Positions 23,867 to 26,287 of a stretch of DNA of 29,031 nucleotides are shown here, piece by piece. The stretch's first letter is position 1. Each line of letters opens with the position of its first letter. Position numbers and translations under genes: made by a program. The notes beneath the pieces were generated by a model, which saw nothing but the letters and a program-made list of their open reading frames with translations, ran no database searches and had not been told where the DNA came from. Source of the DNA: Thiobacillus sp. (lineage in GTDB: Bacteria > Pseudomonadota > Gammaproteobacteria > Burkholderiales > Thiobacillaceae); NCBI GenBank assembly GCA_011391285.1, contig JAABQU010000154.1:1-29031 (forward strand), read 5' to 3'.

Positions 23867-24414
23867 GACACTTTTTTCATCATCACCACTGGATGCTTCC
23901 ACTTCCAGTGCGGCAGATCTTCGGCGATCGGCACCATCGAGATGCAGTCGACCGGGCACGGTGCCACGCACAGTTCGCAGCCGGTGCATTCGGCAGCAAT
24001 GATGGTGTGCATCTGCTTGGCCGCGCCGCAAATCGCGTCGACCGGGCAGGCCTGGATGCACAGCGTGCAGCCGATGCAGGTCTGTTCGTCGATGAAGGCC
24101 ACCGATTTCGGCTTGGGTGCGCCGTGGCTTTCATCGAGCGGCTTGGGCTCGACGCCGAGGAGTTCGGCGAGCTTTTTCACCCCCTCTTCGCCACCCGGCG
24201 GGCACTGGTTGATGTCGGCTTCGCCCCGGGCGATGGCCTCGGCATAGGGCCGGCAGCCGGGAAAGCCGCACTGGCCGCACTGCGTCTGCGGCAGGATGGC
24301 GTCGATCTTTTCCGCCAGCGGATTGCCTTCCACCTTGAAGCGGATCGCTGACCAACCAAGCACCAGGCCGATGACCACGGCGATGCCGACCATCACCAGT
24401 ATGGCGGTGAACAT
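23863..24414 (-). CDS. rnfB: Rnf electron transport complex subunit B
   Basis: A 183-residue iron-sulfur subunit. One N-terminal membrane helix ([20 protein letters not shown]) is followed by a four-Cys motif ([14 protein letters not shown]...INQCPPGG) and two ferredoxin-type clusters, [12 protein letters not shown] and [12 protein letters not shown]. It passes electrons between ferredoxin and the membrane subunits. The ATG overlaps the rnfA stop by one base (TAATG), and the stop overlaps the rnfC start (ATGA). Confidence 0.95.
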
Positions 24415-24989
24415 TATTTCACCAGCCCGGAGAAGCCCATGAAAGCGAGCGACATCAGGCCCGCAGTGATCATCGCGATGCTGGTGCCCTTGAACGGCAA
24501 CGGTACGTCACAGGTGTCGAGGCGCTCGCGGATGCCGGCGAACAGGACCAGCACCAGGGTGAAGCCGATCGCTCCACCTGCGCCGAAGAACAGTGACTCG
24601 ACAAAATTGTGGTTCTCCTGCACGTTGAGCAGCGGAATCCCCAGCACCGCGCAGTTGGTGGTGATGAGTGGCAGGTAGATGCCCAGCACCTGATACAGCA
24701 GCGGGCTGGTCTTGTGGATGAACATCTCGGTGAACTGCACGATGCCGGCGATCACCACGATGAACGACAGCGTGCGCAGGTAGAACAGTTCGGTGCCGAG
24801 CAGGTATTCGTTGATGAGGTAGCTGGCGCCGGAGGCCAGCGTCAGCACGAACGTCGTCGCCAGCCCCATGCCGATCGCCGTCTCCAGTTTCTTCGACACA
24901 CCCATGAAAGGGCACAGGCCGAGAATCTTGGCCATCACGATGTTGTTGACGAACACCGTGGAAATGAGGATGAGGATGTAGGTTTCCAA
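24414..24989 (-). CDS. rnfA: Rnf electron transport complex subunit A
   Basis: An integral membrane subunit of about 191 residues with six hydrophobic segments and the motifs [19 protein letters not shown] and [11 protein letters not shown]. No ATG lies at the expected position. By alignment with other RnfA N-termini (M-x-x-Y-x-L-I-L-x-S), TTG 24989 (TTG GAA ACC TAC) is the best start; the open frame to 25100 runs into the inserted element and is not family-like. No Shine-Dalgarno precedes the TTG. The element described at 25009-25252 begins only 19 bases upstream, so the native leader may have been replaced. The subunit pairs with RnfE to form the ion path. Confidence 0.9.
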
Positions 24990-25008
24990 AATGGGCAGGT
25001 CCGGCGCA

Positions 25009-25252
25009 ATAACCCTAGAAACCGCAGTTGGACGCGCCCGATGGTACGTCTGGGCGGGTGGCTGCCGCGAAGCGAGGAGGCGGCAGGCCGGGGCCTGCAA
25101 CGACGAGCGACAAAGGTAGGCGCGCGATCAGATGTTCCAGCGGGTGTGTAGCAGTTCCACCCTTCCGATGAATGTGATCGAAGGCGGAAAATTCAATATC
25201 CATGAGGAAGCCCATAAGCTTATAAGGGGTCAACTGCGGTTTTTAGGGTTAT
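25009..25252. mobile_element. MITE-like element with 22-bp terminal inverted repeats
   Basis: The left end (25009-25030) reads ATAACCCTAGAAACCGCAGT plus TG. The right end (25231-25252) is its inverse with a single G/A mismatch. GCA flanks both ends (25006-25008 and 25253-25255), consistent with a 3-bp target duplication. The inside (about 200 bp) has no transposase. An open frame of 72 codons runs across it on the minus strand from TTG 25233 to a stop inside the left repeat, but shows no family likeness. The element lies between the PDC/Cache gene and rnfA and fills most of the 335-bp gap. It is probably non-autonomous and moved by a transposase elsewhere. Confidence 0.65.
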
Positions 25253-25324
25253 GCATTATCCGCCGCGGAGTGCATGCGATTCAAGCTGTTGCGGTGAGGG
25301 GTATTCAGCCCCTGGCTTGGCTGT

Positions 25325-26287
25325 TCAGCCGGCCGGCTTGCCGCTGGCCCAGAAGTCGTAGCCCTTGCTGAGGAATTCGTTCCACGGCAGGTAGTGTGAA
25401 CCGTCGCACGAGAAGGTGAGGCCGACCATGCCGTTGAAGATGTTGAGCGAGCCGGCGCGCAGGTAGAAGGTCTCGTCCATGAAGCGCAGCGCGCGCAGCC
25501 CCTCGAGCACCGGACGGATCTTGTCGCGCGGCACCACGGCGTCGGCCGGGTAAGGGTGACAGGGGTAAATCAGGCAGGTGTCAGGGCGGGTCAGCGCGTC
25601 GATGTCGAGCAGGCGGTAGCGGTAGGGATCGTCGACCACCCAGAGGGTGGCGCGGCTGCTGGAAAAATGCAGCTTGCCGTGGAACACGCCGCGGTCGGTC
25701 ATGAGTTCTTCCATCACCCCGATCACCGTGTCGAGGTTGAGGTCCATCTGGCTGTCGATGCGGGTCTGGTGAAACACCGCACCGCGTATCGCCGGGTCGC
25801 CCTTGATCTGCCGCCAGTAGGTCGGCTCGTCGTACAGCTTGCTGGTGATCGGCAGGTCGCGCAGGTCGAAATCGGCGCCGACGAAGCCGAGCGCCCTGCC
25901 GTCGTCGTCGCGCACGATCTGGATCGCGGTGAGCGACGGTCGCTTGGCGCGCAGGCTGATGTAGGCCTGGGTCAGCAGAAAGCCCTGGTTCGGCACCGCC
26001 TCGCGCATGTAGGGGCGATCAGAGCGGTCACGCCCGTAATCCGTCTCGATCAGGCCCTCGCGGCTGATGTTGTCGGAAAGCTGGATTGCACGGGTGTCCA
26101 GCGCATACAGGTATTTGCAGGCGGGCATCGTCGTCAGCGCATGCGTCAGCGCGGCGTTGAGGCCGGCGCGGCTCGGCCACGCGCGGCTGCAGGCTTGGGC
26201 AGCCAGCGCCAGCGGTTCGCGCAGCAGGTTGGCCAGCGCTTCACGTTGTTTGGTGACGCTTTCGGCAAGGGTGGTGGAGGTGGACAT
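25325..26287 (-). CDS. Soluble PDC/Cache sensor-domain protein
   Basis: From ATG 26287 the product has 320 residues (MSTSTTLAESVTKQREALAN). The region about 15-180 resembles a PDC/Cache ligand-binding fold: YLYALDTRAIQLSDNI, GRDRSDRPYMREAVP and GFVGADFDLRDLP. Unlike most Cache domains it has neither signal peptide nor membrane segment, so it should be cytoplasmic. The C-terminal half (LHFSSSRATLWVVDDPYRYR and DETFYLRAGSLNIFNGMVGL) is not a recognised output domain. A ligand-binding or sensory role is inferred only. It is the last gene of a three-gene run behind the HAD gene (56-nt gap). Confidence 0.75.
   Translation of the reverse strand: MSTSTTLAESVTKQREALANLLREPLALAAQACSRAWPSRAGLNAALTHALTTMPACKYLYALDTRAIQLSDNISREGLIETDYGRDRSDRPYMREAVPNQGFLLTQAYISLRAKRPSLTAIQIVRDDDGRALGFVGADFDLRDLPITSKLYDEPTYWRQIKGDPAIRGAVFHQTRIDSQMDLNLDTVIGVMEELMTDRGVFHGKLHFSSSRATLWVVDDPYRYRLLDIDALTRPDTCLIYPCHPYPADAVVPRDKIRPVLEGLRALRFMDETFYLRAGSLNIFNGMVGLTFSCDGSHYLPWNEFLSKGYDFWASGKPAG

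Follow-up and report, generated by a model that had tools for sequence, protein, structure and literature searches.

The rnf leader in the window and in relatives

In the window (the whole 29,031-nucleotide stretch of Thiobacillus sp. DNA that was analysed), a mobile element of 234 bp lies downstream of the promoter and ahead of the start codon in rnf, an operon of energy metabolism. The initial annotation had described a MITE-like insertion in the rnf control region. This description was borne out, since the same ends and interior recur at many other places in related genomes, which marks the sequence as a MITE-like mobile element. The features of the locus are listed below; for the element, plus denotes the strand on which its conserved fold is read.

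24414..24989, minus strand: rnfA (PF02508, E 7.6e-62), native TTG start at 24989-24987 (TTG in 37/37 loci)
25006..25008, plus strand: native GCA on the left, not a duplication; present in the usual empty site
25009..25013, plus strand: target site ATAAC, left copy; fits ATNNC of the relatives' empty sites
25014..25247, plus strand: mobile element (MITE), 234 bp, delimited by comparison of copies; the relatives' copies elsewhere match exactly query positions 715-948
25014..25030, plus strand: left terminal inverted repeat CCTAGAAACCGCAGTTG (arm comparison and copy comparison)
25031..25151, plus strand: conserved structured core, a long imperfect hairpin (covariation; model R1, 107.4 bits, with the window copy as a training row)
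25061..25121, plus strand: 62-position motif at the centre of the core, containing tandem G-A steps and also present in elements with other ends (model R2, 64.8 bits; training row)
25231..25247, minus strand: right terminal inverted repeat CCTAAAAACCGCAGTTG (arm comparison and copy comparison)
25248..25252, plus strand: right flank, reading GTTAT (the target in reverse complement) in place of a second ATAAC
25253..25255, plus strand: native GCA on the right, not a duplication; present in the usual empty site
25255..25284, minus strand: native rnf promoter, with -35 TTGAAT (25284-25279), an 18-base spacer and -10 GATAAT (25260-25255)

Inverted ends of 22 bp had been proposed initially, and the two arms (25009-25030 and 25231-25252, 22 nt each) are indeed 95% complementary, a pairing that, with up to 3 mismatches allowed, appeared in none of 100 shuffles. 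The mobile ends, however, are only the inner 17 bp of these arms, which differ from each other by one mismatch. Across copies, CCTARAAACCGCAGTTG marks the limit of conservation; the 5 bp on the outside of each arm belong to the target site, as indicated by the 5-bp direct repeats around other copies. Three further initial observations held: the left arm lies 19 bases from the rnfA TTG (24987-24989), no open reading frame of at least 80 aa (and hence no transposase) lies wholly within the element, and no further copy of the end was found in the window.

The nearest genomes (RnfA 94% in G184) formed one genus, represented by 56 genomes. A 1201-base query was matched by blastn in 56/56 of them, in some via the element alone, and copies elsewhere spanned exactly 25014-25247. 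The rnf junction was read in 37 loci from 36 genomes, comprising 35/56 genus genomes and one genome from outside the genus (L057 and L071 belong to a single genome). In all 37 loci, the element was absent from the junction. A strict empty-site expression fitted 34/37 loci, and the remaining three were uninterrupted variants. Typically, the empty junction reads GGCGCA-ATNNC-GCATTATCC, while that of the window reads GGCGCA-ATAAC-[element]-GTTAT-GCATTATCC. The empty relatives, with GCA-ATNNC-GCATTATCC, thus show that the GCA on either side is native and that insertion took place at ATAAC. The GCAs do stand outside both arms, as initially seen, but their reading as a target duplication, which had been tied to empty sites with a single GCA, was overturned by the empty-site comparison, in which the usual relative carried both. 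The proposal that the native leader had been replaced likewise failed, as the bases flanking the element on either side are those of the native site. The idea of a conserved leader or riboswitch of rnf, to which the stable fold and the position in the leader would be suited, was ruled out and has a negligible probability, given that the element is missing here in 37/37 loci and present at many other places.

In a simple consensus scan of 24950-25330, TTGAAT-18-GATAAT was the sole promoter-like site (one occurrence, against 0.1 expected in shuffles); the element itself contained none, and no terminator-like site was found. The -10 core was conserved in 37/37 loci and the -35 in 36/37, with unchanged spacing, and the TTG start of rnfA in 37/37 loci from 36 genomes. 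The promoter ends at 25255, just outside the element. Since the native promoter and TTG start are conserved and intact, the element did not replace the promoter, and the earlier suggestion that it might supply one found no support, the only candidate in the scanned region being the native site. These results also leave very little room for the complete initial reading, in which an element of 244 bp, bounded by 22-bp ends and a duplicated GCA, took the place of the native rnf leader and may now provide or obstruct its promoter. Its starting points, the 22-bp arms and a GCA on either side, are truly present, but empty relatives carry both GCAs and the intervening bases, the limits of other copies lie at the inner 17 bp, and the native promoter is intact, with no other promoter-like site.

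The 234-bp element inserted into an ATAAC that lay downstream of the -10 box and ahead of the rnfA TTG. Transcription of rnfA would begin approximately 7 nt past the -10, at the right edge of the element, so that insertion would have lengthened the leader from ~20 to ~260 nt. Transcripts from the native promoter would cross the element antisense, with the central motif also read antisense, and predicted folding energies were -85 kcal/mol for the minus strand and -112 for the plus strand. The likely consequence for rnf is an altered 5' leader, in which a stable hairpin would end 24 nt ahead of the TTG, and no new promoter. By itself, a MITE insertion into the control region of rnf is unremarkable; the unexpected part is the interior of the element. 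The locus constitutes a clean natural experiment, in which an identical promoter and start codon occur with and without a structured leader insert of ~240 bp.

Ends, target sites and a likely mover

The consensus of the element ends is CCTRRAAACC..CAGTTG. Among 148 copies, 61 were flanked by exact 5-bp direct repeats, which conformed to NTNAN in 61/61 cases; the flanks of 8 copies were exactly inverted and those of 79 were neither. As TNA can only be TAA, TGA, TCA or TTA, each target carries a stop codon on one strand. A preference for insertion at stop codons was considered and rejected: in a test that took 52 of 60 loci, 7/52 insertions lay on the stop of a long ORF, against 147/1132 background sites outside ORFs (P 0.83). 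Based on crude ORF calls, and with 6/60 loci of <4000 bases left out, gene orientation around 55 copies was tandem for 27 (18 antisense, 9 sense), divergent for 15 and convergent for 12, while one copy lay in an ORF. One locus (L025:1103-1544) holds a 442-bp element with a TTAAC duplication, in which the core is matched twice (1363-1527 and 1184-1295), as would be expected had one copy inserted into a second.

The window copy, with ATAAC on its left and GTTAT on its right, belongs to the inverted class and has no direct repeat. Relative to the target, its right flank shows three changes in five bases, all of which lengthen the palindrome, and the bases beyond are unchanged. Exactly inverted flanks were found in 8/148 copies versus 3.0 in permutations (P 0.007), although some of these may represent one ancestral insertion; seven of the eight were ATGAT/ATCAT or its mirror. 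The copies concerned are the window copy (25009-25013 / 25248-25252), L146, L150, L244, L250, L270, L275 and L278. Such flanks may have arisen by arm-to-arm copying at the ends of the palindrome.

An end scan of one genome per species yielded 26 stretches, 23 of which were, by record title, from Pseudomonadota. Genomes picked by the end pattern all held between 1 and 252 ends (18/18; reversed control 0). Matches to end plus interior with <=3 mismatches occurred in 81/117 family genomes, in a search whose reversed control was not empty (7 matches in 5/117 genomes). Neither a search for plasmid relatives of the element nor a search of viral contigs for the end pattern gave a match. Separately, a Thiodiazotropha symbiont assembly (G003, the genome of L003) contained 252 end matches with <=1 mismatch in 3.4 Mb, a very high load. 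The same end was also seen in records titled Planctomycetota, Acidobacteria and Mucilaginibacter (L020, L028, L046 of G016, L010 of G009, and L012), which reflects either spread across phyla or misbinned contigs; G016 holds 26 ends, yet its searched loci contained no core match.

One full-size element (L004) spans 1625 bp between two such ends (0 and 2 mismatches) and encodes a transposase of 507 aa. The best NCBIfam model for this protein was IS1380, at 170.5 bits and below the curated cut-off of 180, and the flanks of the element, ATAAC/TTCAT, show no duplication. IS1380-like transposases were scarce in genomes in which the small elements abound: they were detected by protein search in 2/56 genus genomes, and in 6/18 genomes chosen for many ends. 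The IS1380 family model matched in 20/117 family genomes, in 7 of them above its cut-off, compared with the 81/117 that had matches to end plus interior. Transposase pieces adjoin such ends in G361 and G362, the latter having the most core matches in the genus (27). An IS1380-like transposase is the likely mover of the 234-bp element, which would have been moved in trans with duplication of a 5-bp NTNAN target.

The interior fold and a motif shared between different ends

Alignment A1 consisted of 42 rows, i.e., the window copy and 41 of 64 further copies, with L006 re-oriented by hand; A2 contained 33 of these 42 rows. Over the 243 columns of the 42 aligned copies, RNAalifold predicted 61 pairs, 36 of which showed changes on both sides. 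Paired cells amounted to 96.7%, versus a shuffled mean of 82.8 (reached by 0/500 shuffles). The covariation score was 0.404, versus a shuffled mean of 0.150 (0/500 reached it) and at most 0.105 for slid versions. On all five measures the observed value was unmatched by any of the 500 shuffles, a comparison that overstates covariation because the copies are related by descent.

The core displayed a pronounced strand asymmetry. G-U combinations occupied 199 cells and A-C combinations 9, and 31/41 core pairs included at least one G-U, as compared with 7 that included at least one A-C. This difference indicated that the core fold is strand-specific and more than a DNA palindrome. Consistently, the plus strand gave the more stable RNA in 41/42 copies and in 30/30 loci of a wider set. 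Two Watson-Crick pairs located between the G-A steps swapped jointly (columns 64-96, 31 CG and 9 GC; columns 67-93, 29 CG and 12 GC), while unpaired G-A letters and loops were preserved across distant copies. Most likely, the interior fold would act as RNA when the plus strand is transcribed, a reading that we favour over single-stranded DNA.

A purely mutational origin of the paired interior was also considered. Copying from arm to arm of the palindrome, rather than selection on RNA, could maintain pairing, and the inverted right flank of the window and the excess of inverted flanks described above agree with such a process. The asymmetry of G-U over A-C, the retention of unpaired G-A letters and loops in distant copies, and the occurrence of the same motif between different ends (see below) speak against arm copying, and we consider it rather improbable as the explanation of the fold. 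Slightly more probable, but still unlikely, is that the fold has its role in single-stranded DNA, for instance through recognition in replication or transposition; G-T is a tolerated mismatch in DNA as well, and the elements are mobile DNA. Inverted ends and duplications, however, generally point to double-stranded DDE transposition. Moreover, six elements of 119-166 bp have the same ends and no core (L014:1883-2048, L015:5230-5348, L016:4283-4404, L019:5404-5542, L052:1501-1646 and L054:1501-1656), and exact duplications flank three of the six (L014, L052 and L054). The core is therefore not needed for having these ends.

Core model R1 matched in 53/56 genus genomes and gave no match in L004. 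In a class sample, it matched in 52/369 genomes at E 1e-4, with the weaker matches verified in part. Among the best 20 class loci, which were examined (L207-L226), paired ends of the rnf-element kind were present in 18 under a loose criterion; one of the loci, L217, has ends of this type displaced by one base, together with a duplicated TTTAA. Rfam gave nothing at gathering score for the window; another 26 loci gave only matches far short of that score, the best reaching 37.7 bits (gathering score 110) over the L315 core. Some letters may resemble 4.5S SRP RNA, for which no match appeared in the Rfam scans.

The centre of the core also occurs in elements with other kinds of ends. In L224, which is the same place as L303, the ends are TATACCCG instead of those of the rnf-element type. 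Single-hairpin elements with ends TATACCC...GGGTATA have the same centre (L303, L308-L310 and L312), as do elements with similar ends (L305, L306 and L313). A 62-position motif model, R2, was built from elements of the rnf-element type and the TATACCC type; alignment A4 combined 20 of the 42 rows of A1 with 13 of 16 loci (L304, L307 and L310 left out). In the R2 rows, 86.9% of cells were paired versus 69.8 in shuffles, and in a phylum sample R2 matched in 15/398 genomes at E 1e-5. Four further kinds of ends were found around the motif, in six genomes without a training row. In such genomes, the motif was seen with ends CTAG-TGTGGTGTTTC (L352 and L367, with related ends in L350 and L366), CTWAG-AACCTATCTCAGTA (L349 and L363), GGGCSTGTTGACA (both ends in L356, the left end only in L353, and a variant in L365) and CTAG-TACCCCAACCCGG (L354). 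The survey of ends left out L368, which lies at a contig edge. In three other loci (L311, L314 and L234), the central motif lies within further long inverted repeats that have still other flanks.

Models of GC-rich hairpins might match any GC-rich palindrome, in which case the sharing of the motif would be an artefact. In line with this possibility, R1 scored as high as 50.8 bits when true copies were read on the wrong strand, so that low scores alone prove little, and 6/15 genomes with R2 matches have no assigned end type (G043, G311, G926, G983, G994 and G110). Three controls nevertheless make an artefact very improbable. A reversed decoy of equal information matched in 0/24 genomes at E 0.01, including the 15 of R2, an empty result obtained without a positive control. 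In 38 sources, the decoy gave 1 match, at E 0.63, whereas R2 gave 35 at E 0.01; 14 of these 38 sources had contributed training rows, and another 3 cover identical places. Finally, a letter pattern gave 29 matches in 6/321 genomes, a set that includes the sources of the pattern, and its reversed control gave 0.

Taken together, we hold with good confidence that the rnf leader received a 234-bp MITE with a probable IS1380-like mover, which inserted in ATAAC, left the native rnf promoter in place, would add an antisense hairpin to the leader and has a conserved interior fold on the plus strand. The interior motif itself is best read as a functional RNA module. More tentatively, and with somewhat less than even probability, this RNA domain of ~60 nt may be a module of several unrelated MITE families across Pseudomonadota, moved between them or recruited by them and aiding their persistence, by way of, for instance, transcription, an RNase or an RNA-binding protein of the host. 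Interiors of MITEs are usually regarded as leftovers; a strand-specific, covarying motif that recurs amid differing ends implies that the interior is under selection and has a function common to these elements. If this reading is correct, these elements form a class of structured-core MITEs that is named in no library searched, and the motif provides a concrete RNA to seek in existing transcriptomes. The open-access literature surveyed (titles and starts of abstracts) offered no description of the motif, and among listed papers containing a 10-11-letter sequence piece none was, by title, on mobile elements with folded cores.

Relation to known mobile elements

The IS1380 family includes ISEcp1 and ISPme1 (PMC9330008). 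The full-size L004, with ends of the rnf-element kind, resembles this family in encoding a transposase whose best model is IS1380. It departs from the family in scoring just under the curated cut-off, and the 234-bp element is non-coding, with a core that is absent from L004.

REP elements with RAYT transposases are high-copy, folded, extragenic repeats. The family of the rnf-leader element is similarly high-copy, folded and extragenic, but differs from REP elements in having true inverted ends and a target duplication. Transposons of Tn3 types make 5-bp duplications, as does the family of the rnf-leader element. Their miniature derivatives, TIMEs, are described in the sections considered of PMC4133298 as non-autonomous and moved in trans. 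On that description the rnf-leader element is like TIMEs in being non-autonomous and, probably, moved in trans; it may differ in its ends, which resemble those of an IS1380-like element.

Bacterial MITEs include the Correia elements, ERIC and the QMITEs of Coxiella. According to the sections considered of PMC10969869, Correia ends are cleaved by RNase III, ERIC has RNase E sites and QMITEs yield small RNAs. The rnf-leader element shares with these three groups, as characterised there, its short length, inverted ends, intergenic position and lack of a transposase, and their transcripts are stable stem-loops. Those sections do not mention, for bacterial MITEs, a motif shared between different ends. 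Compared with the Correia elements, ERIC and QMITEs as presented in that source, the rnf-leader element is set apart by the strand-specific covariation of its interior and by a central motif that occurs between different ends.
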